From a virus, in the IMG/VR virus record IMGVR_UViG_3300031952_000038, positions 1-43,100 of that record: 43,100 nt of DNA, one strand, 5' to 3'. Position 1 is the first letter of the stretch. Every line of letters starts with the position of its first letter. The notes under the pieces were generated by a model. The model did no database searches. It was not told the origin of the DNA and was given only the letters and a program-made list of their open reading frames with translations. Both the position numbers and the translations under genes were made by a program. This document shows positions 11,890 to 30,049 of the stretch, one piece after another.

Positions 11890-13364
11890 GAGAATAACAC
11901 CGCCATACTTTCTATCTCTGGACCAGCACTAAAGTAAGTGTTTAAAGTAACCTTAACAACTAAGCTAGTGCCTGTCTGAGCAACACTTGTTAAAACTCTG
12001 TTGGTTATTGTTTGATAAGTTAGTCCTCCGTCAGCGCTTATCTGGAAAATGCTGCTACCAAGATTGCTGCCCACTATTCTTAATTCTACCTTTGTAAGAT
12101 TGACGAAAGAGGTTTTTGGAATGCTAATCCAAGTCCCTGTAGTTGAACCAACTGTTAATATTAGGCTTCCGTTAGTGATTTCGCAGTCAACAATGCTTCC
12201 TGTCAAACTACCATCACTAAAAGGTATATTATAACTATAATTTAGTTTGTTAAAATTATCGGCCGTCATTATAGTCTCGTTTTTCCTGATAACAGTATTG
12301 ATTAATTCCTTGGTGTCCTGAGGCTTAAACTCAGTAATAACCTCTGTTCTCCACCCTCCCATTCTTGTTCCGAAAGTGTGAGTAACCTCCAGAGCCTTGT
12401 AGATTCCGTAAATGTGCTGTCTGGGAACGCTAATCCAGAAGTTGTCTCCTTGATTAAGTGTTTGTAATCCGAAACTCTTAAATCTTCCTTGAGGAGGCCT
12501 ATTGGTGTATTTGGAAAGCTCAGCTATGGCAGTGGTTGAGGCGTCACTCATGGTGCTTATGCTGGTGTTCCTTATAAAAACCTCTCTGATGCCCTCATCT
12601 TCTCTGCCCGTTGTTGAGTCATCTAATCCGTTTATGGCGGTATAAACTATTGGTATTCCTACATCGTCTTGACCTATTACTGTAACCCTTGTTTTCTCGT
12701 AATAGTCATCGCTTCCGTTCTCTTGGGTTTCAATAAAGTTATCTCCTTCAGCGATACATTCGTCATCATTCATTATGGTGTTTGCTTCAAAGAAGTGGAA
12801 ATCAAGGTCGTTGTCAATGTAGCAGTCAAATCCGCTTTTTTCCATTAAGTCAGTTACCGCTTCATAGAAGGTTTTGTAATCATAACTGACATCAACATTT
12901 ACTCCGCTCAAACTCACATTATTATGGGTGCATTCGGGGGCGTATAAAGTTATTAAGTTAATCAATACTGTTCCGCAATCCATATCAGATGCTATGTAGC
13001 TTACTCTTCTTTCACTAAGGAAATAAGAGACGTGCCTACCGACTATCTCAAGGAATTGTCCTTCCTTATTCAATACTTCTCTGGGAAAATCAATTCTTCC
13101 AGTGAATTGTAGATAAGTTCCGTCAAGATTATCAAGATAACAATTAACCTCGTCACCAACACCGTATAATCCGCTTAGTATTCCTTTAGGATTATAAAGC
13201 TTAATGGTGAATCCTCCAATGCCGTAATTAAGCAATGGCTTAATCCATGTGCTCTCAACAACCTTGCCAGTAAGATTGTCTCCATTAATATTTATTACTG
13301 GATGAGTATTCCTAGTTATTGGAATGTTAATGAATACGTCAGTTGTTATTATCAATTTTCGCAC
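11886..13364 (-). CDS. Tail hub/baseplate protein
   Basis: The 492-residue protein has a start typical of tail hub (gp27/gpD-like) proteins: STWIKPLLNYGIGGFTIKLY, then QFTGRIDFPREVLNKEGQFLEIVGRHVSYFLSE is found in pieces at residues ~87-120. The middle domain includes FYEAVTDLMEKSGFDCYID and a PPQGRFKSFGLQTLNQGD segment. The last ~110 residues look like a beta-sandwich (LTKVELRIVGSNLG) that may bind carbohydrate. It lies between the fibre-like protein and the lysis genes, as expected for a distal tail component. Confidence 0.7.
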   Translation of the reverse strand: MRKLIITTDVFINIPITRNTHPVININGDNLTGKVVESTWIKPLLNYGIGGFTIKLYNPKGILSGLYGVGDEVNCYLDNLDGTYLQFTGRIDFPREVLNKEGQFLEIVGRHVSYFLSERRVSYIASDMDCGTVLINLITLYAPECTHNNVSLSGVNVDVSYDYKTFYEAVTDLMEKSGFDCYIDNDLDFHFFEANTIMNDDECIAEGDNFIETQENGSDDYYEKTRVTVIGQDDVGIPIVYTAINGLDDSTTGREDEGIREVFIRNTSISTMSDASTTAIAELSKYTNRPPQGRFKSFGLQTLNQGDNFWISVPRQHIYGIYKALEVTHTFGTRMGGWRTEVITEFKPQDTKELINTVIRKNETIMTADNFNKLNYSYNIPFSDGSLTGSIVDCEITNGSLILTVGSTTGTWISIPKTSFVNLTKVELRIVGSNLGSSIFQISADGGLTYQTITNRVLTSVAQTGTSLVVKVTLNTYFSAGPEIESMAVLFS

Positions 13365-16276
13365 ACCTCACAAATCGTGCAGCAGCTTCTGAAAGAGATA
13401 ATTGGTTGCAAATACTTCTTTACGCTGGAGTTGCAATTAACTAGGTCAACCCAAACCCAAAGACTAAGGTTTCCTCTTAAAGTCATGTTGCTGATGAATG
13501 TATAGTTGCTTGTTAAGATTAGTCCTGCTGACTTGTTGTATGATTGGCTGATTGTCATGTTCATGCAAGTAAATGTTTCATTAAGCTTAACTGATAAATT
13601 GAAATTGTTAGAAACGCTTTTACCAGTTATATTAAACAAGGGAATGGTCGGGGTTTGTCCATAAGCTGATATGTTGCTTTGGTTATAACTCTTTGGCTGA
13701 AAGAATATTGTGTTTGTCCAAGTGTAAGGAAGATTCTTATTAATTCTGCTTCTGAAGAAAGTAAGGTTTATTGTGTTATTATTGCTGTAACTAATGTTAT
13801 GAGCTATCAGGATGTATGTCTTGTTGCCTCCTTTATAATCATACTTTATATCATCTATGTATAAGCTTCCGTTAGTGTCTGAACTGAACTTTATAGGGAT
13901 GTTGGTTGAAACGCTCATATCCCAATACATGGCTTCCTCAAACCATTGATTAGCTTGACCTACGCCGAAAGGAGCAGTGCAATAAGTTTGTGATGCGCTA
14001 CCTAGCCAAATGTTGTCTCCAGAGGTAAGAACGCATGAAGACCAATTACCATCATAAGCTTTAGAAACATCAGTACTGCCACTAGCAGTCAGCCCATCTC
14101 CAGGACCGCTAATGCCCGTTACGTTTAACCAATCAGTGCCATTATAACATTGACCATAAGAAACCGAAGCCAGATTACGACTATATATTCTTAAATTAAT
14201 GATGTCGCTATAATTCCAACAAGAAGATGGAATTGTGTAATTAGTAAAATCTAAAAATGTGTCAAATCCGTGTTTCACTAACCACAAAGTAGAATTTAAA
14301 GCACCTAATGGCTTAGTATAATTTATATAAATATAGTTATTTGATAATGCATAAATCCCACCATAACTTAATCCGCAATCTCCATCAATACCATTCTGAT
14401 TAGTAATATTTGCGCTTTCTTGATAACAATATCCTAAATAATTAAAAACCGATATTGAAGTGATTGTATTAAGATAATTTGATAAGTATGTGCCGTTTAT
14501 TATTATAGGATTAATCACTACGGTATAGTTTAGACTAATGTTTTTTAATTGTATTATTCCCGGAGTTTGTGAATAAACATAGATAGGGACTTTGCAGAAT
14601 CCAGAATTATCAGCTATGCAAGAGGATAAGTAAGAAGTTATTGCTGAAGCACTGAAATTAACTGATTGCTCAGAACTTATTGTTCCCGTATAATTCCAGT
14701 CCCTGACTCCATCAATACTCCCTGTCTCTATCCAGATATTGCTGGGGAATGATGTTGTGTAATTAATATCCAGAAACGGAGTGAATCCCGCATAAAGTAA
14801 TTCATAATCTTGACTATAAAAATGTCTATAATCATAAACTGTTGAATTAATTGTTCCGTTTACCATTACTGATAAACTGCTTCCGCCACTATTAACTGTT
14901 GATTGAAGCATGTTTTTGACACTCCAATTATAATATATGTTTTGTGAACTTGCGCAAGAAGAAGTTCCGCATTCTATCCTGACGGATTCTTCAGATGTGC
15001 TGGCGTTGTGTGTCGGTATTCCTTTGTTCCAAGTCCAAGTGGAATCCCAATAACCCGTTACATAAGAAACATTTATCGTCAGGTTTCCCCCTATTCCTCC
15101 CTGATATAATTTTAGATGAAGTATTGCTGAATTAATTGTTGAATTGAGAGATATGTTTGATTCAAATTTTAATAAACCTATTTCTATACTAATCCCGCCA
15201 TACTTTGCTACATGTATATAATAATTGTTGTTATAGTTTTCGTCAGGATTAAGAATGTCCAGATAAGTATCAATTTGTAAAGTCATGTTTTGTGTTATTG
15301 TGCTATTAAAGCCTGTTATGTTGAATGAAAGATTTGAAGTGATATTAGCGGTTTTTGGGATGAGCAAGTAACCCGCGACCTTTGTTTCTTTCGCAGTGAA
15401 TGTCGTGTTCTTAATGTTTGTTGAGTCATTGAAGGTTGTTAAAGTAAAATCTGTTCCCGTCAAGACGGTTCCTATGCTTGAAACGAGGGTGTTGTTAACA
15501 TAAACCTTTACTCCCGTAGGGTAAGTTCCTCCAGAAACGTATCCTGTTATGTTAAAACTAAGATTAACAGGCTCATCATATTGATGACTTGATATGTTAA
15601 AACTGACGTTATTAGGGGTTACGAATGTCAGGTTAGTGTTTGAGCTTCCATTGCTCAAAGTCGTTCTTCTGAAATAAGTTATGTTGGCGATGAAACTTGT
15701 GGAGTTATCTGCGCAACTATAATTAACCCCGTAACTTGGATGATTAAAATCTATGCAAACAGTTCCGGAACTTATGTTGGCGCTAATGTTCAAAGCACTA
15801 CCCATTTCCACGTTTATGTTTGCTTGAGAAAAGTTATTGACAAAAAGTTCGGGGTCGCTGGTGGCGTTGTTGCCATACCATAATGGGTCAAGGTCTCCTC
15901 CTGCTCCGCTTATGCTCCACTTAACAGTTTCGGCAGGATTGTTCTTGTATCCTACAAGCTTAAACTGATACTTAACTCCTTTAGTAAGAGTTGTTTTGTT
16001 GTATGAATAGAAATCAACCCATTTACCGTATTTCTTGATGTATAATTCATAATCTTTAATCTCGGGGATGAAACTTAGTTTAATCTTTTCAGGATTATAA
16101 ATGTAAGTTGTTCGGTTAGTTGTAATGTTAATATAAGATATGCAGGGGTCAAGTGTTGTTCCGTCACAAAATTTGTCTCCGTCACTAACGATTATTGCTC
16201 CATTAAGAATTAGTAATGTGAATAAGCTTATTAGAGTTATTGCGCTTGTTAGGATTATTGTTTGTGTCTTAACCAT
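13352..16276 (-). CDS. Large secreted sequon-rich protein with DNRLRE-like domain
   Basis: The 974-residue protein starts with a clear signal/anchor (TIILTSAITLISLFTLLILN). It is unusually rich in N-x-S/T sequons (NITTNRTTY, NYTGTISSE). Around 340-470 a DNRLRE/disaggregatase-type domain is visible (LQIDTYLDILNPDENYNNNY, LLKFESNISLNSTINSAILH). Other parts resemble cell-surface beta domains. It sits between two tail genes, so it may be a tail fibre or adhesin, yet the signal peptide implies export. Cysteines at FCDGTTLDPC suggest disulfides. Confidence 0.75.
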   Translation of the reverse strand: MVKTQTIILTSAITLISLFTLLILNGAIIVSDGDKFCDGTTLDPCISYINITTNRTTYIYNPEKIKLSFIPEIKDYELYIKKYGKWVDFYSYNKTTLTKGVKYQFKLVGYKNNPAETVKWSISGAGGDLDPLWYGNNATSDPELFVNNFSQANINVEMGSALNISANISSGTVCIDFNHPSYGVNYSCADNSTSFIANITYFRRTTLSNGSSNTNLTFVTPNNVSFNISSHQYDEPVNLSFNITGYVSGGTYPTGVKVYVNNTLVSSIGTVLTGTDFTLTTFNDSTNIKNTTFTAKETKVAGYLLIPKTANITSNLSFNITGFNSTITQNMTLQIDTYLDILNPDENYNNNYYIHVAKYGGISIEIGLLKFESNISLNSTINSAILHLKLYQGGIGGNLTINVSYVTGYWDSTWTWNKGIPTHNASTSEESVRIECGTSSCASSQNIYYNWSVKNMLQSTVNSGGSSLSVMVNGTINSTVYDYRHFYSQDYELLYAGFTPFLDINYTTSFPSNIWIETGSIDGVRDWNYTGTISSEQSVNFSASAITSYLSSCIADNSGFCKVPIYVYSQTPGIIQLKNISLNYTVVINPIIINGTYLSNYLNTITSISVFNYLGYCYQESANITNQNGIDGDCGLSYGGIYALSNNYIYINYTKPLGALNSTLWLVKHGFDTFLDFTNYTIPSSCWNYSDIINLRIYSRNLASVSYGQCYNGTDWLNVTGISGPGDGLTASGSTDVSKAYDGNWSSCVLTSGDNIWLGSASQTYCTAPFGVGQANQWFEEAMYWDMSVSTNIPIKFSSDTNGSLYIDDIKYDYKGGNKTYILIAHNISYSNNNTINLTFFRSRINKNLPYTWTNTIFFQPKSYNQSNISAYGQTPTIPLFNITGKSVSNNFNLSVKLNETFTCMNMTISQSYNKSAGLILTSNYTFISNMTLRGNLSLWVWVDLVNCNSSVKKYLQPIISFRSCCTICEVCEN

Positions 16277-16280
16277 TTTT

Positions 16281-16685
16281 TCAACTATCTATGCTACTTT
16301 CAACAAGATTGAAATTCCAACTTATTATTGTGGGCTCTCCAGAAATGGTATTACTTTCAAATCTGGTTATTTTAACCTTTATGGTTCCTCTGTAATCATC
16401 AACGAAACTAATAGGATAACCACTATCAACATCTTGATGACCATGAATCATATTCTGACAACTAGTAATAAAAGTGGCGCAGTCAGCAATATCGGTTCCT
16501 ATATAAACTCCCGATACATCTATGGTTTTAGTCACTCCCCCGAAATCAAAAACATAAGTCTCATCACTATCTCTCGTATACATAGGCATCGGTGTGAGAT
16601 TGGCTTCCTTATATACCTTGCAGTTCGCTATGAAACTTTTACCATCTCCTTGTAAAGTTACTGCTCCTAAAGTCGTATTACCCAT
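16281..16685 (-). CDS. Tail protein, Dit/tail-tip-like
   Basis: The 134-residue protein is beta-rich: FIANCKVYKEANLTPMPMYT, YVFDFGGVTKTIDVSG, and the end KVKITRFESNTISGEPTIIS followed by WNFNLVESS. The closing strand pattern is common in distal-tail and related small tail proteins. Its place right after the tape-measure gene supports a tail-tip role. No precise family assigned. Confidence 0.55.
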   Translation of the reverse strand: MGNTTLGAVTLQGDGKSFIANCKVYKEANLTPMPMYTRDSDETYVFDFGGVTKTIDVSGVYIGTDIADCATFITSCQNMIHGHQDVDSGYPISFVDDYRGTIKVKITRFESNTISGEPTIISWNFNLVESSIDS

Positions 16686-16869
16686 TTTTACCCTTTAATC
16701 TATTATTTATGTCGTTTAACGCCTTAATCATAATTCTTTGTTGATTAACAAGACATTTAAGATAATCCTCCAACGTATCCAACTTAGAAGAATCAGAAAC
16801 AGGCATTTTAAATATAACCTTAGCTTTCTCCTCGTTAATCTTCTTTTCCTCTTCCATTAATTCAATCAT
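16678..16869 (-). CDS. Small tail-region protein
   Basis: The 63-residue protein MIELMEEEKKINEEKAKVIF... is helical and charged, ending LNDINNRLKGKNG. It overlaps both neighbours by a few bases. Function unknown. Confidence 0.6.
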   Translation of the reverse strand: MIELMEEEKKINEEKAKVIFKMPVSDSSKLDTLEDYLKCLVNQQRIMIKALNDINNRLKGKNG

Positions 16870-17042
16870 ATCAAGTTCCTTCTTCTAATGTCAAACTCAA
16901 GACTTCTAGCTTCTTTTTTAATCTGTCTTTCAATTTCTTTAATCATTAAATCTTTAATTGAAATGGTCGTGTTTATTTCTTTGGGAATCCTATTAAGATT
17001 ATCTATTGCTTGATTGACCGCTTCTTCGCTTTCGCTAACCAT
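16866..17042 (-). CDS. Small helical protein after tape measure
   Basis: A 58-residue ORF, MVSESEEAVNQAIDNLNRIP..., helical throughout and ending EFDIRRRNLI. The TGA overlaps the ATG of the next small gene. It fills the otherwise empty interval between the tape measure and tail-tip genes. Confidence 0.6.
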   Translation of the reverse strand: MVSESEEAVNQAIDNLNRIPKEINTTISIKDLMIKEIERQIKKEARSLEFDIRRRNLI

Positions 17043-17048
17043 TTTTTT

Positions 17049-18587
17049 TCACACATAAACCGTTTTTATTTTATGAATTGTTGTGTATGTTCTGTTAAGT
17101 TTAGATAATGAATCTAAGATTTGATTAACCATGTCAACACCAGTATTTTTCATGGTGATAAATCTGTTAATAGCATAATTTAAATTGTTCACTAATGGTC
17201 CTTTTATTGATAAACTCAAATCATCAACCTTATTTTTAATTATAGGAAGGTCCGTCTTCATAGTACTTGAAATATTAACATATGTGGTTTTGGCAGTATT
17301 TAAGTTGTTTATTAATGAACTGGTTCCACCAATACCAAGACTGGTTCCGCCTATGCTAGTATTAAGAGCGGTAACATTTTTAGTTACAACTGGAAGGTCC
17401 GTCTTCATAGTACTTGTCGTAATAGTATAAGTAGTTTTAACGTTTTTTAAACTTTCCGAAACCGTATCTAGACTGGTTTTTAATGGTGTATAAAAATCTT
17501 CAAAATCTTCTTTTTCACCAAAGGCTTTTTTACTAAGTTCAGCAGATTCCTCAAGAGTCAAGGCACTTACAAAACTAGGTTTTTCAAATTCCTTAATGCT
17601 TTTACCATGAAAAATCTTAGTCCAAACATTAACTAGCCAATTTTTACTTTTTTGAAATAATTCTATCATCTTAATATCCCAACCAGCCTCCCAAGCTACG
17701 TCAAGAAGACTAATTAATAATGAAACACTTATTCCTATTGTTCCTCCAACCAAAGCCCCCTCGGGTCCTCCAGCCATAAAGCCTATAAGAGCTCCTGCTC
17801 CTGCTCCTGTAGCCATTAGTTTAAAGTATTCTAGAACGCTAGTTCCGTCTTGAGTTAATATATCGTAAGCTTCAATTATGAAAGCTATTGTTAATCCTGC
17901 CGCTATAGCTATTTTAGCGTTAAGAATAGCTCCAGCTAATTTTCCAGTTTTTAATAATGTTAGTATGAAAGCAGCTAATCCTCCAAGTCCTATTATTCCT
18001 AATTGACTAGCAAAATCTTCCTTGTTAATCCACTCAGCCAAAGCCATTATTCCTAATCCTAAAGTTATAGTTGCTAATCCTCCAACAACAGCAGTTCCTA
18101 TACCAGCAGTAACAGCTGCTAAGAAACTAGCAGCTATTAATCCTCCTATAAGCATCCAGACACTAGGTTCTTTAGCTAAAGCAAGAATTCCAGCTCCGAA
18201 TACATCCATAGGACTTCCACCCGCAGCAGTTGCTTTATCTTGAGCTTCTTTAACATTATCAGCAATATTCTTCATATTAACAAGCATTTGTTTAACTAAA
18301 GGCATCAATGGTAAGAATAACATAATCATTATCAACTTAAACATGGTAAGAATTGGTCTGAGAAAAACACTAAAAGCCTCCCATATAGCAGCAAGGATTC
18401 CTATTTTTACAAGCATCTTATTGAATCCTTGAGCTATGCTATCTACTAGTTTTGTGCTTTCACCAACTCTTCCTTTTACCACACTCATAGCTCCTTCCAT
18501 GTTTTTTACTAAGTTCTCCGCTATCTTCTTAGAATTAGTTAGCATTCCTTCAAAGATTACGGGAATCTTAATACTAACATCAGCCAT
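17049..18587 (-). CDS. Tail tape measure protein
   Basis: The 512-residue protein is helical with a long hydrophobic centre (residues ~60-280, e.g. LIGGLIAASFLAAVTAGIGT and GAGAGALIGFMAGGPEGALV), and coiled-coil ends with repeated TTYVNISSTMKTDLP units. Position directly after the two tail chaperone frames is diagnostic. At roughly 1.5 angstrom per residue the tail would be about 75-80 nm, suggesting a modest siphovirus tail; this length is an estimate. The repeats TMKTDLPVV/TMKTDLPII imply internal duplication. Confidence 0.88.
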   Translation of the reverse strand: MADVSIKIPVIFEGMLTNSKKIAENLVKNMEGAMSVVKGRVGESTKLVDSIAQGFNKMLVKIGILAAIWEAFSVFLRPILTMFKLIMIMLFLPLMPLVKQMLVNMKNIADNVKEAQDKATAAGGSPMDVFGAGILALAKEPSVWMLIGGLIAASFLAAVTAGIGTAVVGGLATITLGLGIMALAEWINKEDFASQLGIIGLGGLAAFILTLLKTGKLAGAILNAKIAIAAGLTIAFIIEAYDILTQDGTSVLEYFKLMATGAGAGALIGFMAGGPEGALVGGTIGISVSLLISLLDVAWEAGWDIKMIELFQKSKNWLVNVWTKIFHGKSIKEFEKPSFVSALTLEESAELSKKAFGEKEDFEDFYTPLKTSLDTVSESLKNVKTTYTITTSTMKTDLPVVTKNVTALNTSIGGTSLGIGGTSSLINNLNTAKTTYVNISSTMKTDLPIIKNKVDDLSLSIKGPLVNNLNYAINRFITMKNTGVDMVNQILDSLSKLNRTYTTIHKIKTVYV

Positions 18588-18589
18588 AA

Positions 18590-18781
18590 TTAGTGCCTCT
18601 TACTATCTTCTTGCTCTTTCTTTCTCCACTCCGATTCTAAGTTGAGGAAGTTCAGGACTCTCTCATAACCGAGTTCGTTTACTTGAACTGGAGTGTATCC
18701 GAAAATCTTAGCCATCAAAAAATAAATGACTTCAACTTGTAACTCCGGATTATCCGTTCCCGTCCTGAAAGCCCAGTTCAA
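18590..18781 (-). CDS. Tail assembly chaperone, frameshift extension (gpT-like)
   Basis: This frame has no ATG; its first in-frame initiator is the TTG at 18781. Read by a -1 shift on the A9 run at 18787-18795 it continues the upstream chaperone as KKRSLNWAFRTGTDNPELQV, then EVIYFLMAKIFGYTPVQV. Lambda-type G/GT chaperones use exactly this arrangement to load tail tube onto the tape measure. The product would be a ~180-residue fusion. Confidence 0.75.
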   Translation of the reverse strand: MNWAFRTGTDNPELQVEVIYFLMAKIFGYTPVQVNELGYERVLNFLNLESEWRKKEQEDSKRH

Positions 18782-19122
18782 GCTTCTTTTTTTTTATCAG
18801 TAGGCGTATTTAATTCATTAAATAGTGCTACTAGTTCTTGCCCTAGTTCGTTAGACAAATCTCTAATGCTTTGAATGTTTAGGATGAAAGGAGCGGCTAT
18901 GATGCTTTTTAATAAGCAGTTTTCGCTCATAATCTTTTGGTCTAAGTCAAACTTAGCTATTCCTCCCACCATGCTCATCTTTGCACTCATCTGGTTAAGG
19001 TCTAACATTTCCCCGAAAGAGAGTTTCTTTATCCTTATAATTTCTTCCTTTCCTTCCCAATCTATTTCTAATTCCGTATAGGAAATCTTTTTCCCTCCAG
19101 AATCCATAGTCTTAATTTCCAT
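18778..19122 (-). CDS. Tail assembly chaperone (gpG-like)
   Basis: The 114-residue protein MEIKTMDSGGKKISYTELEI... continues KKLSFGEMLDLNQMSAKMSM and ends NTPTDKKKEA. The LSFGEMLDLN core is common in tail chaperones and its gene lies between tail tube and tape measure. Its last codons run through A9 before a TGA, making a slippery site for the -1 extension. Confidence 0.78.
   Translation of the reverse strand: MEIKTMDSGGKKISYTELEIDWEGKEEIIRIKKLSFGEMLDLNQMSAKMSMVGGIAKFDLDQKIMSENCLLKSIIAAPFILNIQSIRDLSNELGQELVALFNELNTPTDKKKEA
18785..18798 (-). promoter_or_regulatory. Programmed -1 frameshift site
   Basis: Reading GAT AAA AAA AAA GAA, an A9 run (18787-18795) provides an A AAA AAA(G) slippery heptamer 7 nt before the zero-frame stop. 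A -1 slip enters the 18590 frame as AGA AGC TTG. No stable downstream pseudoknot was identified by eye. Confidence 0.7.
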
Positions 19123-19155
19123 AGTCTTCTACCTCTTAGCTGTCTTCAGCGTTTT

Positions 19156-19326
19156 TTATAGTTCTAGTTCTTTCTCTAAAAATTTGAATATGTATTCTGC
19201 GTTCTTCTTATCATGCCATAATGGAAGTTCGGTTTCTCTGAACTTGTTAAAAGCAGTTCTTACTCTTGGCTTCCAATCAGGTTCTATTCCTTTATCTTCA
19301 AACTTTTCTTGAATGCTTTTAGCCAT
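19156..19326 (-). CDS. Small protein between tail tube and chaperone
   Basis: A 56-residue ORF, MAKSIQEKFEDKGIEPDWKP, continuing RVRTAFNKFRETELPLWHDK. It is basic-helical. It fills the interval between tail tube and chaperone genes and is likely a minor tail-assembly factor. No family recognised. Confidence 0.6.
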   Translation of the reverse strand: MAKSIQEKFEDKGIEPDWKPRVRTAFNKFRETELPLWHDKKNAEYIFKFLEKELEL

Positions 19327-19338
19327 TATTAATACCTC

Positions 19339-20370
19339 CTACGGATATGCTACGTCTGTCGCTTGAGCATTTGTCACTATTATGTTTGTGCAACTAAGAG
19401 CCCATCCAGTAACATCTTCCTTAACAACCTCGTTAACATCCAAAGGCAAAGTGTGCTCGTTAAGGTAAAAGTTAGCGAAGGTAAAAGACACTCCTCTAAG
19501 AGCTGCTCCTGCTCCTCCATTAGTGAATGTTAACACCAAGGCTATCCCCGCGGGATTAAGGGTTGCTAAAGCAGATGCCGTGTAGGGAACTGTTGTTCCA
19601 GCCCAATTCTCAAGCAAAAGGGTTACGTCACTAAAATCCACTGTCATCCTTACGTCATAAGTTCTTGTCTTTTCAGGGCCTGCCGTGCTGTATCTGCTTC
19701 CCAGTCCCCAAACCATCTCCACATTATTGGTTATTGTTAACTCAACGTTCTGGACATATCCTATAGTTACTCCAGCTTTACCTGTTAGTGTTCCTTGAGC
19801 AAAGGTTAGGGGGACTTCTGTTGGCGTTACTGCGTTTCCTATTCCTGCACTTGCTACTGTTTCTGTTCTGTAAGGGCATTCAAGCCTAACCTTGGCTACT
19901 TCGTCAACTGCTGCCGTTATTGTGCAACTTTGAACCTTACAGCCAATGAGAGCCGAAACGTAGTCTGTTCCTAGTTCCAAGGCATTGGCTACGCTGAAAC
20001 TGGCTAGTGTGTTGCTTTCAGCGTATGTGTGTGTCCAAGCACTTCCTGCCACCGCATCATTGGGTATTGCTCCCAATACTGCTCTTAGCCAACTAGCTCC
20101 TCCATGAGCCAATGTTGTGTCTCCTGCTCCTAGCAGGAATTCTATCGTTGCTGTTCCTTCAAACTTCTTAGCCACATTAGCACTTGCGTTCCTTGCTCCA
20201 AGACCGTGGATTCTTTCCATGTTGTTCTTTCTGCTAATGCTTATCTTTGTTCCTTGACCGAAAGGTCTAGGAAAACTTGCTGCTACTGTTCCGTAAGTAG
20301 CTGCGGCTTCAAAGCCATAGTTTACGTATCCGAATGCTCCACTCGCTGGCGTCTGTACTATTTTAATCAC
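19339..20370 (-). CDS. Major tail tube protein
   Basis: The 343-residue protein is beta-rich and well conserved in style: GYVNYGFEAAATYGTVAASF, ISRKNNMERIHGLGARNASA, FEGTATIEFLLGAG and the end FANFYLNEHTLPLDVNEVVK. This is the pattern of siphovirus tail tube proteins, and the gene precedes the chaperones. The start is uncertain: the GTG at 20370 lies inside GGAGGTGATT, which itself should be the ribosome site, so initiation may be at a non-AUG codon a few bases downstream. Confidence 0.8.
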   Translation of the reverse strand: MIKIVQTPASGAFGYVNYGFEAAATYGTVAASFPRPFGQGTKISISRKNNMERIHGLGARNASANVAKKFEGTATIEFLLGAGDTTLAHGGASWLRAVLGAIPNDAVAGSAWTHTYAESNTLASFSVANALELGTDYVSALIGCKVQSCTITAAVDEVAKVRLECPYRTETVASAGIGNAVTPTEVPLTFAQGTLTGKAGVTIGYVQNVELTITNNVEMVWGLGSRYSTAGPEKTRTYDVRMTVDFSDVTLLLENWAGTTVPYTASALATLNPAGIALVLTFTNGGAGAALRGVSFTFANFYLNEHTLPLDVNEVVKEDVTGWALSCTNIIVTNAQATDVAYP

Positions 20371-21562: not shown

Positions 21563-21762
21563 AGTTTCATCTTCTTCTTAAGCATAAGTATTTCTGCTTG
21601 CAAAATGCTTAACTGAGTTATTATATTGCTAATCTTCTTACTTAATATATTTACTTGAATTTCTAAACTTATAGGCTCAGTAATGGGCTCATCGCTTTCT
21701 ATATTAGCATTAACTTGCTCATCAATAAGTTTCTCAGCTTTTTCTTTCTCTTCTTTATCCAT
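21559..21762 (-). CDS. Small coiled-coil protein
   Basis: 67 residues from the ATG at 21762 (MDKEEKEKAEKLIDEQVNAN), chosen for its AGAGGT site; a longer ORF from 21837 overlaps the adaptor gene. The C-half is a leucine/isoleucine heptad coil (VNILSKKISNIITQLSILQA). Unknown function within the connector cluster. Confidence 0.6.
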   Translation of the reverse strand: MDKEEKEKAEKLIDEQVNANIESDEPITEPISLEIQVNILSKKISNIITQLSILQAEILMLKKKMKL

Positions 21763-21766
21763 GATT

Positions 21767-22123
21767 TTATACCTCTGACAAATAACAAACAGCATACCAG
21801 TGCATGAAAACGTTAGTAACATATCTCTTGGTAACATTCTTAACCAAGTATGTGAATCCGTCTATGCTGAACTTATCCATCCTCTTAGGCTCAAAACTTG
21901 TAGGAAACATTATATAAGCATCACCGACTTCTACAAGTCCTTCCTTATCAAACAAATATCTGTTCTCTTCAAGGAAGAATACTGCACTTTTATCAATTGC
22001 TGCCACATAAGTAATAATCTCGTCTCCAGTAACAGGGTCTACTGTTTTGCTAAGTACTGAGTAACTTAATGTCCTAGTCATATCGTTCAGTATTTGCGTG
22101 AAATCATCATTACTTAGTGTCAA
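21767..22123 (-). CDS. Head-tail adaptor (head closure) protein
   Basis: The 118-residue protein reads MTLSNDDFTQILNDMTRTLS..., TYVAAIDKSAVFFLEENRYL, VGDAYIMFPTSFEPKRMDKF and MHWYAVCYLSEV. A small beta-barrel following the gp6-like connector fits the gp16/head-closure position. The family call rests on layout plus fold-like pattern. Confidence 0.6.
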   Translation of the reverse strand: MTLSNDDFTQILNDMTRTLSYSVLSKTVDPVTGDEIITYVAAIDKSAVFFLEENRYLFDKEGLVEVGDAYIMFPTSFEPKRMDKFSIDGFTYLVKNVTKRYVTNVFMHWYAVCYLSEV

Positions 22124-23097
22124 CGTGAATCACCCGAACTGAAAAATATGCTTCTCTGTTTTCTTCCGACTCTATCCAATATTCTATTAGTTTCCTCAGT
22201 AAGCATATTTATTTGTTGTAATCCTCTTTGATAAATATCTCCCTTCACCACATTTTGTTGAGGAATACTATATGATGTAATCGCATTATAGTTTCCTCCC
22301 ATGAAGGTTATCCAAACTCTTATTGCGCTTAGGCATACTGCAAGATTCCAGATAACCTGAGGAACGCTACCATATCCGTAAGTGTAACTTACCTTTACAT
22401 TATTAGTTCCTTTAGCTATGGTGCTTTCTTTAAGAGTTATTTTTCCGTTAGGAATTATGCTGTTAGTTACTGGATCATTCATTGTTTGCAGCCAATAGTC
22501 TTCGCTTTCATAAGTTCCAACTATTATCTCCGCTTGACTTACCGTATCAAAGGTGCTTGTGGCATTCCCGTCAATATCAACTATGTTGCAAAGGGTTATG
22601 CTCTGAATTGGATAGTGGCTTAATTGAAAGCTGCTAGCGTAATTGCCTATTATGTCCTTGTCTTTTGTGCTAAGATACTCTGTTATGCTGTTGGCGTTAG
22701 TGAATAATCTTCCTGCTTGCATTTCCAGTTCTGCCTCTGCGTCAAGTATTAAAGCGTCTACTATTGCGCTACCAACTTCGCTCGTGCTTAGTCCTGTCTT
22801 GTTATAAACGTCTGTGTAAGTGCAGTATTTACTTACTGCTGGGGCTGTGCTTCCTTGAACATAAATTATTGTTAAGTAATCAGCATCCCATACTACGTTT
22901 AGGAATGTTATCGTGCTATTAGCTATTGCGTGAGTTACCGTGTATTCCGTGGTTGTTGTTAAGCTTAGTCCGTTATTGAATACTAGGAATCCTCCGCTTA
23001 CTGTTAATTGAGTATTAGCAAGTGTTAATACTCTGTTCGTTACTCCGTCTGTTAATGTGCAATTACTTCCTCTCTTGGTTTCGGTTGATAATCCCAT
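22120..23097 (-). CDS. Head-tail connector (gp6-like) with N-terminal beta domain
   Basis: The 325-residue protein has a ~90-residue beta-rich N-terminal extension (VTNRVLTLANTQLTVSGGFL, EYTVTHAIANSTITFL). A helical connector core follows: YTDVYNKTGLSTSEVGSAIV, then DALILDAEAELEMQAGRLF, typical of gp6-like adaptors. The C-terminus ends NRILDRVGRKQRSIFFSSGD. It docks to the portal in related viruses. Confidence 0.7.
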   Translation of the reverse strand: MGLSTETKRGSNCTLTDGVTNRVLTLANTQLTVSGGFLVFNNGLSLTTTTEYTVTHAIANSTITFLNVVWDADYLTIIYVQGSTAPAVSKYCTYTDVYNKTGLSTSEVGSAIVDALILDAEAELEMQAGRLFTNANSITEYLSTKDKDIIGNYASSFQLSHYPIQSITLCNIVDIDGNATSTFDTVSQAEIIVGTYESEDYWLQTMNDPVTNSIIPNGKITLKESTIAKGTNNVKVSYTYGYGSVPQVIWNLAVCLSAIRVWITFMGGNYNAITSYSIPQQNVVKGDIYQRGLQQINMLTEETNRILDRVGRKQRSIFFSSGDSR

Positions 23098-23110
23098 GTT
23101 TTTTTTTCAC

Positions 23111-23425
23111 CTATATTCTTGTGCAATTAATAGTGTTACAACTATATTTAATAACTCCACTAATGGATGCTTCTGGATTAGGGAAAGTTTTAGTTTCACT
23201 TAACTTAACCCACCCCGTTTCGCACTTAACGCTTTTTGTCCTGTTCTGAATGTAAGGATAGGCTGTGAGGCCTGTTCCGCTTATTCCCCCATAAAATACT
23301 CCTACTGTGTTACTTGATTCGCAATAATAAGTGTTAACTTGTTCAGTCGGGGTTAATAGTATGCTTCCTCCGAATCCTAAGAGCAGAGTGATTATTCCTA
23401 TTATTCCTACGTATTTGTTTTCCAT
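23111..23425 (-). CDS. Membrane-anchored/secreted small protein
   Basis: The 104-residue protein has an N-terminal hydrophobic segment (YVGIIGIITLLLGFGGSILL), then a cysteine-bearing exposed domain (NTYYCESSNTVGVFYGGISG, SVKCETGWVKL, CNTINC). Four cysteines could form two disulfides outside the cell. It is the first of four consecutive exported-type genes embedded in the virion module. Confidence 0.7.
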   Translation of the reverse strand: MENKYVGIIGIITLLLGFGGSILLTPTEQVNTYYCESSNTVGVFYGGISGTGLTAYPYIQNRTKSVKCETGWVKLSETKTFPNPEASISGVIKYSCNTINCTRI

Positions 23426-24528
23426 TAGTAAAACCTCAAAACATTATTTCCAAGAATCCTCATGACGGCATTACCATAAACTACGAACAACAAAAAGGGT
23501 GGAGGGTCGTCTTCTCCCGCTCCGGTTCCCGTAATGTTACTAAGCAAATAATAATTCAATCCGCTAATCGTTGTGGTTGATAACGTCATTCCATCCTTCG
23601 TTTCTCCAACAATAATATTTATTCTTCCAGAGCATTCATTATTAACATCATCAATGCTCTTTGCTCCGGGACATACAAAAACTTTATTAGATTGACTTAT
23701 TCTCGGAATTAATAAGCTAGCATTAACTACTCCGCTAGTAGTATAATTGTGTAGATAGGATTTCCTGTGGCTTCTATCAATCTTGCTTGAAAGATTACTC
23801 ATAGTAATGTTACTCGTGAAGTTAAAAACTATTATTGATGTAATATTATCGTCACTATCATTAATCATTACATAAGCGGAAATTATTCCTGTTGTTCCAT
23901 TAATCGCTAAGTTAAGACTATCATTAACTCTTATGAATGAAGTATTTGTTGGTGCCGATTTAATAATGTAAACAGGATTTTCTGATAAGCTATAATTAAC
24001 TAATACCTCAACATAATCAATATATATGTAATCTGCTCCGGCATCATAATTAAGTCCTTCACAAGCAACTATTAGACGACCATTAATCAAGTCAGTAAAA
24101 GAGTTATTATAAGTTACGTTAAGCCAATCATTACTGGTCGGAGTGCTTCCAATACTAATCCATGCGGGAGTTGTGAAGTTATAAATGTAACAAGTAGTTG
24201 TTTCGGCAGCATTATCATAACCTTTCCAATTAACTTTCAACTGATTAATATTAGTCTCATTTATAGAGAAGTTAAATCTCCAGAAGGGCTCATTATGAAC
24301 TCCGCTGCCAGTAACGTTAACGTATGAGGCATCGGGAACTTTAAGAGCAACATACTGAGTGCTGTTGGCTTCTGTGCCTGCTAATAACATGTTGCTGCCT
24401 GCTGGACTTCCCCAGTAAGCATTATTATTAGTGTCACTGAAATTATGATTATTGTTTAAAGCGTTTACTGAACTAATAATTAATAACATCATGCACAAAT
24501 ATCCAATTAATATAAGGTCTTTTTTCAT
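23425..24528 (-). CDS. Secreted sequon-rich protein
   Basis: Starting at the ATG at 24528 (overlapping the TGA of the previous gene), the ~367-residue product begins MKKDLILIGYLCMMLLIISS, a signal peptide. The mature part is a beta-sandwich-like chain full of N-x-S/T sites (NATQ-like, NFSINETNINQ, NFTSNITMSNLSS). The extreme C-terminus (PPPFLLFVVYGNAVMRILGN) is hydrophobic, perhaps a second anchor or virion-docking tail. No catalytic motif is visible. Confidence 0.72.
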   Translation of the reverse strand: MKKDLILIGYLCMMLLIISSVNALNNNHNFSDTNNNAYWGSPAGSNMLLAGTEANSTQYVALKVPDASYVNVTGSGVHNEPFWRFNFSINETNINQLKVNWKGYDNAAETTTCYIYNFTTPAWISIGSTPTSNDWLNVTYNNSFTDLINGRLIVACEGLNYDAGADYIYIDYVEVLVNYSLSENPVYIIKSAPTNTSFIRVNDSLNLAINGTTGIISAYVMINDSDDNITSIIVFNFTSNITMSNLSSKIDRSHRKSYLHNYTTSGVVNASLLIPRISQSNKVFVCPGAKSIDDVNNECSGRINIIVGETKDGMTLSTTTISGLNYYLLSNITGTGAGEDDPPPFLLFVVYGNAVMRILGNNVLRFY

Positions 24529-26198
24529 GTTGTCACATAATCGCATCCAGTTGCTGCTATTGCGTAGCATCCTGGACTGAATGTTAAGCAACCAGCACTG
24601 CAAGCTCCTCCTGTCCCTGTGCAATTATACAGGTAAAGAGTTCTGCTAGTGCTCTTGTTCATGTTAGTTCCGTCTGTGCAGTTAATCCAGTAATTATAAA
24701 CATTAAAGAAGCTTAGGCTTGCATTCGCTGTTATTATGGTTGCTGTGTTGTTAAGGGTTGATGCGTTGAATCCGTACAATGTATTATTCATTGTTAAATC
24801 GCATCTCATACTATTATTTTTATCATCTGTTGCTGTGAAGTTTATGCTTGGAGTGTCATCATTAGTCCAATTAAAATCAGGGGGGCTATTAACAATTACT
24901 GAAGGAGCAACACTATCTACAGTATAATTCCTATAGCTCAAGCCAAAGCCATTATTGTATAACTGACTTATTTCTGTAGAGTTCAAGCTTCTATTCCAGA
25001 ACCCTATTTCATCAAAACTACCATATAATCCCTCACTCGTTGTTCCTTTACTCATAATCTGCAACTTAGTATAAGCCACTACTGTTCCAGAACAAGTGCT
25101 GTTGTATACGAATGTTCCATTAACATAAACATTCATTTGGCTGCCATTATAGACGAAGGTAAGCATAACCCAGGTATTATTCACGAAATGAACATATGGA
25201 CGGCGAGCCCCGCAATTAGTTCCCGAAGTATCAATAACTACGTCTATTAAATCTCCGAAGCCTTGTGTTGCTTCACTATAACAGGACACGCTGTTTCCTC
25301 CATCATGGAATAATCTTCCATATCCTGCTCCTCCGTTTCCTGTTTTATTAACCCAAAGGTTAATGCTCATACTTGAAGCTCCAGTAACATTAGGAACTCT
25401 GACATTAAGATACTCCGCTTCTGCATCATCATTATATGCCTGACCTAATATTCCTCCGAAGCCGCTAGTTAATCCTCCGGTTAATGTTCCGTTTTTGTAA
25501 TTCATGCTATCAACACTTATTGTCCCGCTAGTCTTATCGTCGTCGCAAGTATAGTATTGTATTAACCCGTAATCTAAGCCTGTATAAGTTTCATTAATTC
25601 CGCTAGTAACATTCCACCAAGCCCACTTATCAACAACCAAAACATTAATTCCGATACTTAAAATAGGCTTCCACTCAATAGCGTAAGAATAATTAACTCC
25701 TCCAATCAAGCAACGGCTCGGTTCAATATCTCCTTTAATCTTGATTTTCTTTACATCAACTAAACCATTATAAGGGATTTCTTCATCAGAACAAGAAACG
25801 CTATTATTCTTCTGAATTATACAAGTCGTTTCAATAACATATAATTCGTAACTATTAACCTTACCGCACACTTCATTAAAAACAATGGACAAATTATCTT
25901 CTGCAGTAAGCTTCGTACTGTTCATCGTAAAAACCGCTTCTTTAAGGTTAGCATCATTAATCTTTAACTCAGTGAATATTTTGTTCTCAATATTTGTTGT
26001 GTTAGTGGTATTGAAAGCTTTCATTAATGATGTATCATTAACAACTTTATCCTCAAACAAAAGCTTATCTGAAGGAATGATTGCGTCTGCCTCGCCTTGG
26101 ATACTCAATAACAAAGGCAAAGCAATTATCATAATAACTATGAACGTTAACGGCAATACTTTAATGAATGCGCTTTTAACTTGAGTTTTCTTATTCAT
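24525..26198 (-). CDS. Membrane-anchored LamG-like lectin-domain protein
   Basis: About 557 residues from MNKKTQVKSAFIKVLPLTFI; residues ~15-38 are a transmembrane signal/anchor. A laminin-G/concanavalin-like domain spans roughly 205-420, with LIQYYTCDDDKTSGTISVDS at its start, SMSINLWVNKTGN in the middle and GSFDEIGFWNRSLNSTEISQ at its end. An Ig-like domain follows (VAPSVIVNSPPDFNWTNDDT). Dense sequons and paired cysteines mark an extracellular protein. A glycan-binding adhesin is the likely role. Confidence 0.8.
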   Translation of the reverse strand: MNKKTQVKSAFIKVLPLTFIVIMIIALPLLLSIQGEADAIIPSDKLLFEDKVVNDTSLMKAFNTTNTTNIENKIFTELKINDANLKEAVFTMNSTKLTAEDNLSIVFNEVCGKVNSYELYVIETTCIIQKNNSVSCSDEEIPYNGLVDVKKIKIKGDIEPSRCLIGGVNYSYAIEWKPILSIGINVLVVDKWAWWNVTSGINETYTGLDYGLIQYYTCDDDKTSGTISVDSMNYKNGTLTGGLTSGFGGILGQAYNDDAEAEYLNVRVPNVTGASSMSINLWVNKTGNGGAGYGRLFHDGGNSVSCYSEATQGFGDLIDVVIDTSGTNCGARRPYVHFVNNTWVMLTFVYNGSQMNVYVNGTFVYNSTCSGTVVAYTKLQIMSKGTTSEGLYGSFDEIGFWNRSLNSTEISQLYNNGFGLSYRNYTVDSVAPSVIVNSPPDFNWTNDDTPSINFTATDDKNNSMRCDLTMNNTLYGFNASTLNNTATIITANASLSFFNVYNYWINCTDGTNMNKSTSRTLYLYNCTGTGGACSAGCLTFSPGCYAIAATGCDYVTT

Positions 26199-26200
26199 TT

Positions 26201-29200
26201 TCAGCATCCTACCGTTGTTAAATTAAAGCTCGTGCCTATTATTGTTACTGTCCCGTTGTAGCATATCCCGCTAAAGTTTCCGTTAGCCTCAATATTTCCT
26301 ATCTTCCACTTGGCGAGAGGAACACTGATGTATCCTCCAGTAATCGTTATGTTGCTTGGGAAAGTGTAATTGCCTGCTCCAAAAGTAGTACCGGTTATGT
26401 TTCCTGCTCCAAGAAGTGTTCCGTTAAGTATTCTTCCCCCTACTAAAGTGTTGACTGTTTCATTAAGCATCCTAGCTCCTACAAGACTTAGTACCGTGGC
26501 ATTCATAGCTCTTGCTCCTACTTCGCTCATAAGAGTTGCGTTCATAGCCCTGGCACCAACCTCTAATAGTATTGTGTTGTTCTGAGCAATATTAGTAGCA
26601 TCAACCACCGTAGTAAGAGCCTTTAAACCAATAGTATTGTTCATTCCTTGAAGGCTTAGGTCTAAACTACCATTAATCATCCTACTGCTTATATCAGTTT
26701 GTATGTTATTGCCGTTAAGATAGAGTGCTCCTCCATAAAAAGATGTGGTGTTAATCGTAGTATTAGTCCATACTGTTGTTCCTGTTCCGGTTCCGAACGT
26801 TATATTAACTCCATCATCAATTATCATGCTACTATTTATTGTGTTCGTTCCATTCCATCTTGCAAGATAATTAGTTGTTCCACTTCCATTAACAGTTCCT
26901 CCTCCACTTCCTCCAGTCATCGCTACGCATTGGCTAGTAGTGCCTGTAGTTGTTGTTGTGACATTCTGAACAACATTACTTCCAGTACAATTAGCTGTTC
27001 CTGGAAGAGCCTTCAAGTTAGCAGTAGCATTAACATTAGTTAAGCTATTGTTTTGTGCGGTGTTCGTAGCGTCAACTACTGTTGTTAGTGCTTTTAAGCC
27101 AATGGTATTGTTCATGCCCTGAAGGCTAAGGTCAAGACTGCCATTCATCATGCGAGCGCCCACCAATAATAAGACGCTGTTGTTCTGGGCTGCGTTAGTG
27201 TTATCGGTTATCGTTGTATTGAAAAATCCTAATACCTGAATGTTGTAGCTAGTATTAATTCCTGCTATGCTATTGTTCATGTTAGTCAAACCAGCATCCA
27301 AAGTCCCATTAACTATCCTATTACCAGCGTAACTGTATAATGTAGCGTTCATAAGCCTAGCACCAACTTCACTCATTAGGGTATTATTCTGGGCAGTGTT
27401 CGTGTTGTCTATGATTGTAGTGTTAAAGAACTTCAGCACTTGTATGTTGTATGTCGTGTTAATGCTTGCTATCGTATTATTTATGTTGGTTATGCCCGCA
27501 TCAAGAGTTCCATTTACCATTCTCGCTCCTACTAATGTCATTACTGTCGCGTTCATTGCTCTTGCTCCAACCTCTAATAGTATTGTGTTGTTTTGGGCGG
27601 TGTTAGTGGCGTCTATGACTGTAGTGTTAAAGAATCCGAGAACCTGTATGTTACTGCTAGTGTTTACGCTATTAATTCTTAATGTTTCGTTGAATGCACT
27701 TGCTAAGGTTGTTATTGTGCTGTTAAGTGTTGTTCCATTAACGCATAGTATTCCTGTGCAGTTAGCTAAGTAATAGCTTCCTGTGATGTTCCATATCGTG
27801 TCTACTCCTCCCGTATCAGTGAAACTGGCTGTAAGGTTATCCATACCTATCCTTGCCAAGTTAATAGTCTTGGTGCTTGTTCCGTCAACGCTCAAAGCAG
27901 AAGTATAATTGTTCAAGTCAGTTGTTACAACTGTTATGCACTGACTAGTCGTTCCTGCGGTAGTGGTTGTGACATTTTGAGCCACATCGTTTCCTGTGCA
28001 ACTGGCTGTTCCTGGATAAGCTTTTGTGTTGGCAGTAGCATTAGCACTTGTTATATTGGCTTGTATTCCTGTTTTGTCTGCACTCCAATTACCCACTCCA
28101 GCAACCACCTCCACCAATGTCAAGTTGCTTGTCCCTATTGACGGCGTGTTTTGTAAGTTACTCCAATTTAACATTCCCACGAACCAACTAGCGGTAATAT
28201 TGAATAACCCAGCATCCCAATTACCAGTTAAACCTACGTTACCATCCTTGTGTATACTGTAGGGGTCTGTCTCTGAAGAAGAAGGGGTTGCAGGTCCTTT
28301 GCTTATAGCTACCCAATCAAACTGATGATTATGAGTTGATGAGCCAACATTAGAACTATAAAATCTTAATTGAACAATGCCACTAACGATGTGGTCTGCT
28401 ATATCATAAACGTTCATGGTCATAATATTATAATCGGGGCTTACACCGACCGTTCTATAACTTTCCCAACTATCAAGAACGCTATCCCACAGGGCTATAT
28501 CCATTGTGTGACTTTCTGTTGTGGCAGATTTATACCTCACTATAATCTGATTAAAATCTGTTATTCCAGTAAAATTAACTCTGAAATCAATATCAGAATT
28601 AACCTCGGAAACATTATAACTAATACTATCATAACTTGTGATGTTGCTTATTCCTCCGCTTGAAGTTCCAGTAACATTAGTTATGGCTGAAGCATTATAA
28701 ATAGTTACGATTAATAAACTATCGGCATAAGCGGTATCGTTGAATACGCTGGCATTATAGCATTGAACTCCAGTAGTTGTCGTGTTCTGAGTTACTAATT
28801 GTCCTGAACAAGTGCCTGGTAGGGCCTTCAAGTTTGCTGTGGCGTTCACGTTTGTTATGTTGGTCTGTATTCCGCTTATCTGACTTGTGTGAGTGACTAC
28901 TGTGCTGTTAACATTATTTATAGCTAAAGTATTATTGTATTTGCTGGCTGTCGTATCATTAATGTAATCTACGCAAGTGAGTGTGTCTCCTATTCCGCTA
29001 ACTACCTGTCCCGCACATGCCGTGGGGTAATTATCTATGGTCGTCCACAGGCTTCTGTTAACGAAGTAACTTATGCTGTTTGTTAGGCTAAGATAATCTG
29101 CTATGTTGTTACCATTAAGAGAACTTATGCTTGTGCAAGTAGTGCTATCATTTACTGCTGTGAGATAAGTTTGGCTACTTCCTGTTCCTACGCAGGCCAC

Positions 29201-30049
29201 GGGATAATTCTGAAGAGTAGTCCAATTAATAGGAGTTGATGTTCTAACTATTGTGGAGTTATCAAGTTCAGTATCCCTTGTAATAGTTGAATCTATTCTT
29301 GCATCAGCCACTGTTCCACTAGTAATATTTTCTCCACTTATAGTAACTGTGCTCTTAGAATGAACATGACTATCATCTGCTACTATTAAGTTGCTGTAAT
29401 TGCCGCTTACATCCCCTGCGCTATTAGTGAAAGTCCTGATTATTGTGGAATTATCAATTATTAATGTGTCGTTATAAATGTTTGTGTTGTAGCATTGAAC
29501 TCCAGTGGTTGTCGTGTTCTGAGTTACTGAACTTCCCGTGCATGTTCCTGGCAAGGCTTTTAATCCTATAGTGTTATTCTGTGCTAGTTGGCTTGCATCA
29601 ATGATTGTCGTGTTGTAGAATCCTAAGTTCTGAATGTTGCTTGTTGTGTTGATGTTGTTATCGGCGTTTTGTCTGTTGGTTATCTCGTTGCTTAGACTAG
29701 TGTTTTGAGCTGTTTGACTTGAGTCAATTTCTGTTTTTGTGTAGAAAAGATTGCTGAAAAAGCTAAAGACTATATCCAATAATCCCCCTGTAGTCTTCAG
29801 GGTGCTTGTATTAACATTCAAGTGGCTTATGTTGGTGTATTGGCTATAATTAACAGTTAAACTACTCATGTTGCCGTAATCTATTACCTTAGTGCCGTTC
29901 TGAAATATTCTTGTTCCGTTAATATCTGTGAAGTTAACAATAGCATAAATGTTCTTTCCCCATATATCCCCCTGAGGAACTAATGGAATTGCATTAACCA
30001 TTAGGCTAATGATTAATATTAATAAAGGATAGAATATTATTTTATTCAT
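26201..30049 (-). CDS. Giant repetitive secreted fibre protein
   Basis: The 1282-residue protein begins with a signal peptide (MNKIIFYPLLILIISLMVNA) and a fibre-like head (FYTKTEIDSSQTAQNTSLSN). The body repeats TAQNN(T/S) and G(A/G)RxxNGTL units such as NIQVLGFFNTTI and SLDLSLQGMNNTIGLKAL many times, with embedded RWNGTNTINSSMIIDDG, a motif of trimeric phage tail fibres. The end FSGICYNGTVTIIGTSFNLT closes with Cys. The combination of phage-fibre repeats with a secretion signal and dense sequons is the odd point. Confidence 0.78.
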   Translation of the reverse strand: MNKIIFYPLLILIISLMVNAIPLVPQGDIWGKNIYAIVNFTDINGTRIFQNGTKVIDYGNMSSLTVNYSQYTNISHLNVNTSTLKTTGGLLDIVFSFFSNLFYTKTEIDSSQTAQNTSLSNEITNRQNADNNINTTSNIQNLGFYNTTIIDASQLAQNNTIGLKALPGTCTGSSVTQNTTTTGVQCYNTNIYNDTLIIDNSTIIRTFTNSAGDVSGNYSNLIVADDSHVHSKSTVTISGENITSGTVADARIDSTITRDTELDNSTIVRTSTPINWTTLQNYPVACVGTGSSQTYLTAVNDSTTCTSISSLNGNNIADYLSLTNSISYFVNRSLWTTIDNYPTACAGQVVSGIGDTLTCVDYINDTTASKYNNTLAINNVNSTVVTHTSQISGIQTNITNVNATANLKALPGTCSGQLVTQNTTTTGVQCYNASVFNDTAYADSLLIVTIYNASAITNVTGTSSGGISNITSYDSISYNVSEVNSDIDFRVNFTGITDFNQIIVRYKSATTESHTMDIALWDSVLDSWESYRTVGVSPDYNIMTMNVYDIADHIVSGIVQLRFYSSNVGSSTHNHQFDWVAISKGPATPSSSETDPYSIHKDGNVGLTGNWDAGLFNITASWFVGMLNWSNLQNTPSIGTSNLTLVEVVAGVGNWSADKTGIQANITSANATANTKAYPGTASCTGNDVAQNVTTTTAGTTSQCITVVTTDLNNYTSALSVDGTSTKTINLARIGMDNLTASFTDTGGVDTIWNITGSYYLANCTGILCVNGTTLNSTITTLASAFNETLRINSVNTSSNIQVLGFFNTTVIDATNTAQNNTILLEVGARAMNATVMTLVGARMVNGTLDAGITNINNTIASINTTYNIQVLKFFNTTIIDNTNTAQNNTLMSEVGARLMNATLYSYAGNRIVNGTLDAGLTNMNNSIAGINTSYNIQVLGFFNTTITDNTNAAQNNSVLLLVGARMMNGSLDLSLQGMNNTIGLKALTTVVDATNTAQNNSLTNVNATANLKALPGTANCTGSNVVQNVTTTTTGTTSQCVAMTGGSGGGTVNGSGTTNYLARWNGTNTINSSMIIDDGVNITFGTGTGTTVWTNTTINTTSFYGGALYLNGNNIQTDISSRMINGSLDLSLQGMNNTIGLKALTTVVDATNIAQNNTILLEVGARAMNATLMSEVGARAMNATVLSLVGARMLNETVNTLVGGRILNGTLLGAGNITGTTFGAGNYTFPSNITITGGYISVPLAKWKIGNIEANGNFSGICYNGTVTIIGTSFNLTTVGC

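Follow-up and report, generated by a model that had tools for sequence, protein, structure and literature searches.

Fibre genes that begin with signal peptides lie in the neck region of the structural module of a tailed virus. We observe signal peptides, selection for N-x-S/T sites (sequons), a conserved gene slot, one N-terminal motif in both signal-bearing and signal-less fibres, and the nesting of a signal-less virus in the signal-bearing clade. We tentatively propose, at close to an even chance though short of it, that the neck-slot fibre is a virion-type fibre, usually routed through Sec and probably glycosylated, which docks on the particle at or after lysis, and that the products of genes 13352 and 23111 (genes are named by their lower coordinate) stay on the host side.

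The virus and its exported genes

The window, which is the whole 43,100-base record analysed here, has an exact 127-bp direct repeat at its ends (1-127 = 42974-43100), which makes a circularly complete genome, about 42,970 bp long, very probable. Its minus strand encodes nearly all of the large ORFs, including the five exported genes, the connector, the hub-like gene, the MCP and the peptidase. The head part runs from terminase through portal (with an intein and a MuF domain), protease and major capsid protein (MCP; 32131..33261) to the exported cassette. The head-tail adaptor, or connector (22120..23097; phrog_442), which we use as the reference gene of the neck slot, comes next, followed by head closure, tail completion, tail tube and tape measure. 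Then come gene 16281, the exported gene 13352, a hub-like gene (11886..13364, named for its position) and a papain-family (C1) peptidase (11116..11889; PF00112, E 7.6e-14), which is a possible lysis or entry enzyme. Terminase, portal, maturation protease, MCP, connector and tube were matched in order by PHROG, as in a tailed virus with an HK97-type capsid (Caudoviricetes-like); the tape-measure and hub labels are based on position, length and local families.

The MCP served as query for relatives and for the host. Its relatives (36-41% identity) were found in Woesearchaeota, Nanoarchaeota and one unclassified archaeal MAG, with one further match in a bin labelled WOR-3, and the host is likely among small archaea of the Woesearchaeota/Nanoarchaeota type. 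In a sample of 100 genomes from the phylum of one MCP-relative MAG, 85 encode STT3/AglB, which makes N-glycosylation of exported proteins plausible there.

Several other features of the genome are recorded here. The portal gene (34959-38687) has a large intein inside and is fused to a MuF-like head morphogenesis domain. A TnpA-like IS200/IS605 ORF (3-515) is truncated by the left end of the record. Two repeats pair 2033-2111 with 42089-42167 (92% identity) and 1918-1956 with 41544-41582 (90% identity); the former gives a common C-terminal tail, NAVAVVTTDGIPP, to two unrelated ORFs, one methylase-like and one PAPS-reductase-like. A 58-bp repeat, 93% identical (4106-4163, 4585-4642), encodes the segment DEEQAKSIKRYLDREE common to two small proteins. 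We also notice a HEIGH metallopeptidase-like motif in a small protein whose N-terminus is hydrophobic (2996-3313), a near-perfect 46-bp palindrome flanked by small genes (8222-8266), and a protein of QRPEVKAYHKAY repeats with a short charged C-terminus (9283-9861).

Five genes had been picked out in a sequence-only reading as exported proteins set among connector, tail and capsid genes. Each indeed begins with a signal or anchor segment, and PHROG matches identify the neighbours as connector, head-closure, tail-completion, tail-tube and MCP genes. By hydropathy and residue tallies, the fibres have an N-terminal signal peptide and cleavage-type residues. The largest, 26201 (26201..30049, 1282 aa), has a signal of the cleavable type, MNKIIFYPLLILIISLMVNA preceding IPLVPQGD, a mature N-terminus PLVPQGDIWGKNIYAI, which is the window version of DFTPQGDINLRxxYxI, a repetitive shaft and a jelly-roll domain. 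The 560-aa, sequon-rich 24525 (24525..26207) has a long signal (VLPLTFIVIMIIALPLLLSIQGEADA). Gene 23425 probably does not begin with the TTG at 24624; the ATG at 24528 is more likely and gives a sequon-rich protein of 367 aa (23425..24528; MKKDLILIGYLCMMLLIISSVNA) with a weak GH114-associated match below the cut-off. The small 23111 (23111..23425, 104 aa) has an N-terminal membrane segment, and its relatives adjoin exported genes in several viruses. The remaining gene, 13352 (13352..16276, 974 aa, sequon-rich), lies between 16281 and the hub gene. Genes overlap at 26201/24525, at 24525/23425 (with the ATG start), at 23425/23111 and at 13352/11886, which suggests that the exported genes are co-translated with structural genes.

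The domains of the set point to carbohydrate or surface binding. The LamG domain proposed for 24525 is clear (PF13385, E 2.2e-13, 51.1 bits versus a curated cut-off of 27.6). In 26201, a CBM-like beta-sandwich (28130..28729), located by Foldseek and by comparison with relatives, is common to the signal-bearing fibres L124, L132, L133, L134 and L149 (34-46% identity); it matches CBM28/35/6/29 and the baseplate of phage phi812 (E 6e-5 to 1e-3) in a model of modest confidence (pLDDT 53.8 overall, core 70-90). Among relatives, we notice a beta-helix domain in L003 and a CBM96 domain in L096. A search of the fibres against solved structures gave no match. The phage-fibre label for 26201 derives from relatives with the same N-terminal motif; its own HMM match is weak, the only PHROG family matched being phrog_18501, of unknown function (E 0.0036).

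The fibre slot in related viruses

A capsid-profile search gave 80 viral loci, whose core arrangement is MCP, connector, head closure, tail completion and tube. One large clade and some other viruses have exported genes inserted on one or the other side of the connector; many relatives have no exported cassette in the neck slot. We defined the fibre family by the mature start DFTPQG[DN]INLRxxYxI directly after a signal peptide. Signal peptide and motif occur together in 32 viral contigs, the window included and some near-duplicates among them, and these fibres, where mapped, are located in the MCP-connector-tail interval; three further fibres (L018, L021, L075) are diverged. The motif-based searches themselves impose part of the conservation seen at motif positions 1 to 9. 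The capsid-profile search has no such bias and recovered ten motif fibres (L003, L006, L034, L046, L062, L069, L070, L076, L088 and the window) together with the three diverged ones. Of 2.9 million viral contigs, only 11 have DFTPQGDIN, and every one belongs to this virus group. The connector protein as a single-sequence query found no relatives.

At the level of sequence, the arrangement of signal peptide and fibre start within the structural module is conserved. The motif is preceded by A, V, S or T, and A occupies -2 in 18/26, as signal peptidase prefers. Among 730 ORFs of 12 non-exported virion families of the relatives, only three have an N-terminal hydrophobic segment. The location in the structural module and the conserved N-terminal segment are those expected of a Caudoviricetes virion fibre, with the segment as the putative attachment to the virion. 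A candidate docking partner is P128, a protein of about 125 aa (e.g. L153:17267-17653, L157:15872-16252) with weak helix-hairpin-helix matches in Pfam. It occurs in 21/25 fibre viruses versus 2/33 without the fibre (Fisher p 8e-10), a co-occurrence confounded by phylogeny; P128 is a lead only because the two groups are largely separate clades. Elsewhere among the relatives' tail genes lie probable homing-endonuclease-like ORFs, of the GxxxWNKG type or similar (L154:4952-5746, L154:10936-11505, L157:16439-17233, L158:3705-4331), one of which adjoins a 13352-family gene.

Relatives lacking the hydrophobic N-terminus, named beforehand as evidence against export, do exist: 32 contigs keep the signal, but four contigs of two lineages (L098/L100/L101; L102) have MSDFTPQGDINLR without a signal peptide, in the position directly following the connector. 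In L096, which has a signal, the sequence is LA and then SDFTPQGDINLRG; in L098, which has none, it is M and then SDFTPQGDINLRD, so both would give an identical mature end. On the MCP tree, from which L102 (partial MCP) was left off, L098 is nested among signal-bearing viruses with strong support (100/99). Its nearest signal-bearing relative is L152, and the two are 97.8% identical in the connector and 86.7% in the MCP, with DNA that corresponds up to the start codon. Past the motif, the fibre bodies of L098 and L102 differ from the signal-bearing ones. The difference between L098 and L152 is therefore probably an exchange of fibre alleles at the motif, not a clean deletion of the signal, and function may have switched along with the allele. 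The signal-less fibres match PHROG tail-fibre and tail-protein families (E 5e-5 to 1e-4 for L102, 2e-13 for L098), which suggests that members of the family act as ordinary virion fibres. These exceptions sharpen the case, in that signal-bearing and signal-less forms keep the same motif at their predicted mature ends.

All 12 loci with a member of the 13352 family encode an N-terminal membrane segment in it, and the N-terminal ectodomain of the family has two invariant Cys (C37 and C45 in the window). The segment is probably a membrane anchor, because most relatives have no good cleavage site. Often, as in the window, L086, L102 and G394, the gene is flanked by 16281 and the gene for the hub. 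The DNRLRE-type label given to 13352 is not supported, since the window protein has no Pfam or NCBIfam match; a homologue in L096 with the same N-terminal domain matches CBM96 (E 2.4e-6) and, just under the cut-off, DNRLRE (E 4.4e-8). The model of the 13352 N-terminal domain is moderate (pLDDT 67.9), and its beta-sandwich matches are weak and mixed, with E never under 0.001.

Sequon content and export

Each protein was shuffled, with its first 30 residues excluded, and observed sequons were compared with expectation. The excess is clear in 13352 (62 versus 23 expected, z 9.7), 23425 (19 versus 7.6, z 4.9), 24525 (29 versus 10.6, z 6.4) and 26201 (87 versus 40, z 9.1, somewhat inflated by internal repeats). 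It amounts to 2.2 to 2.7 times expectation, and only the +2 spacing is raised. The saturation with sequons noted earlier thus applies to these four proteins but not to 23111, which has two sequons and is unenriched. Fourteen other window proteins range from z -1.9 to 1.7, except the MCP (7 versus 2.5, z 3.1). Across relatives, the pooled +2 ratio is 2.14 (95% CI 1.91-2.33) for 29 signal-bearing fibres, versus 0.80-1.14 for eleven non-exported virion families and 1.46 for the MCP. We considered glycan selection for the MCP excess and rejected it, as it looks like conserved structural Asn-x-Ser/Thr (e.g. NDS, in the C-terminal core).

The ratio is 1.48 for the signal-less fibre. In the L098/L101 virus, the adjacent LamG protein is likewise without a signal and has a ratio of 0.63. 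The protein in the tail-tip slot, in contrast, is still exported and has 44 sequons versus a background of 15; within one genome, the excess therefore follows export. Cys content is 1.06% in signal-bearing fibres versus 0.26% in the L098 fibre. The fibres of L152, L046, L018 and L021 have a signal and little or no sequon enrichment. Four of the five exported window proteins are enriched beyond composition, as predicted for AglB substrates, and the signal-bearing fibre is probably N-glycosylated by the host AglB.

A proposed route from the cell to the particle

We infer the following route from these sequence features. Both 26201 and 24525, and probably 23425, would be virion-type adhesive fibres made as Sec precursors. 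Removal of the signal peptide would leave the conserved mature N-terminus (S/A)DFTPQGDINLRxxYxI, and outside the membrane the fibre would probably be N-glycosylated and might form disulphides. Meanwhile, the cytoplasm would be the site of capsid and tail assembly. When the cell lyses, or later, the fibre would dock by its free N-terminus on the neck or head surface, giving a particle with a glycosylated, carbohydrate-binding fibre. The anchored 13352 and 23111 would remain in the host membrane, exposing their domains to the outside, and may act there in superinfection block, adhesion or egress. Because exported and non-exported forms share the N-terminus, one docking role on the particle is the simplest account, and signal-bearing forms with that role would meet the particle outside the cytoplasm. 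Export with attachment at egress, one of the options offered by the sequence-only reading, is thus the one we favour on the motif, as an interpretation. The motif could instead be a shaft cap, and the window hub could carry a binding domain. Some relatives (G392, G397) have non-exported candidate tail-tip proteins after the hub; given these and the possible hub domain, receptor binding may depend mainly on a protein other than the exported fibre.

The strongest rival, and a serious one that we regard as possible if on balance doubtful, is that the whole set of five is made late and ends up on the surface of the infected archaeal cell or is shed from it, and that the likeness to fibres reflects a virion fibre recruited for secretion. 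They would then block superinfection, change the adhesion of an episymbiont or act as decoys. Display on the host had also been suggested from the sequence alone; it fits the anchored 13352 and 23111, which look to have their bulk outside, and for the rest of the set it competes with docking on the particle. LamG, CBM-like and beta-helix domains suit cell adhesion, the neck-slot cassette is missing from many relatives, as accessory genes would be, and export alone suffices for sequon selection. However, this reading leaves unexplained why non-exportable fibres have the same N-terminal motif, why the fibres are cleavable and have no membrane anchor, and why the genes recur beside the connector. 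A hydrophobic N-terminus could also fall short of full export, serving membrane insertion for assembly or egress or being removed by a viral protease, with fibres joining virions on the cytoplasmic side. Cytoplasmic fibre assembly is normal for tailed viruses and the signal-less forms show that it works in this slot, but the sequon excess and Cys content of signal-bearing fibres indicate life outside the membrane, and the residues preceding the motif fit the preference of signal peptidase; we consider it unlikely.

An origin as host adhesin genes acquired by the virus, also raised earlier, is very unlikely. Cellular surface proteins commonly have LamG and CBM-like domains, but the DFTPQGDIN motif is restricted to this virus group, and a profile search of 371 host-phylum genomes gave no convincing non-viral homologue of the fibre start. 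The sole strong match, G004, lies on a MAG contig stretch that also bears capsid genes. The 13352 N-terminal profile gave no convincing host homologue in 194 genomes, and a positive control on virus records worked. It is scarcely credible that the true starts lie downstream of the hydrophobic stretch. Some signal regions have internal ATG codons; against this, the stretch is conserved in 32 contigs, several loci (e.g. L123, L142) have no alternative start codon before the motif, and a purine-rich, Shine-Dalgarno-like site precedes a start in 11/32 loci.

Caudoviricetes have neck whiskers, collar fibres and tail fibres, such as T4 fibritin and tail fibres and the lactococcal neck passage structures. 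Their fibres are long and repetitive, conserved at the N-terminus and variable in the adhesive C-terminal parts, and their genes adjoin those of the connector; to our knowledge, they lack a secretion signal and a sequon excess, and assembly takes place in the cytoplasm. The present family resembles them in its repetitive shaft, conserved N-terminus, connector-adjacent gene and the PHROG tail-fibre matches of its signal-less members, and the window fibre differs in its secretion signal and sequon excess. Superinfection-exclusion proteins of phages, e.g. the T5 lipoprotein Llp, are likewise virus-encoded and exported to the host surface, but they are small lipoproteins outside the structural fibre slot, whereas the window proteins are large, sequon-rich and adhesive and lie inside the virion module.

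Among archaeal viruses, the head-tailed HRTV-DL1 shows faint glycoprotein bands; its host-attachment protein ORF24 has nine sequons, its MCP is also suspected of glycosylation, and loss of aglB left the viral life cycle unchanged (PMC10384203). It is thus a tailed archaeal virus with a sequon-bearing protein of the attachment type, but its sequon load is far lower and a signal peptide is unreported (PMC10384203), whereas the window fibre has a signal. Pleolipoviruses (HFPV-1/HRPV type) have exported, glycosylated receptor-binding spikes (PMC10384203), but they are enveloped and leave through the membrane, in contrast to a virus with terminase, portal, HK97-type MCP and tail. None of 50,697 annotated phage records matches the fibre, the 13352 family or the MCP, and we found no paper in the open-licence literature either on viruses of this host group or on exported tailed-virus fibres. 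Within these records and this literature, the suggestion that the strategy is undescribed seems to hold. We know of no precedent for docking outside the cytoplasm in a non-enveloped tailed virus. Our broader claim, which we put forward with some reserve and place below an even chance, is that a non-enveloped tailed archaeal virus passes virion fibres through Sec and N-glycosylation and fits them to particles outside the cytoplasm, and that its relatives alternate between an exported and a cytoplasmic form of one docking fibre.

In the current view, tailed-virus particles reach completion within the cell, and N-glycans are added outside the membrane. If the proposal is true, secretion and glycosylation of a fibre ahead of its contact with the particle would amount to a new way of assembling a virion, and would account for how N-glycans could come to be on non-enveloped archaeal viruses. 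The L152 and L098 pair, with and without the signal, is a ready natural experiment on the route of the fibre to the particle. If the proteins instead stay on the host, they would form a large and unstudied group of viral glycoproteins on the surface of episymbiotic, contact-dependent archaea.
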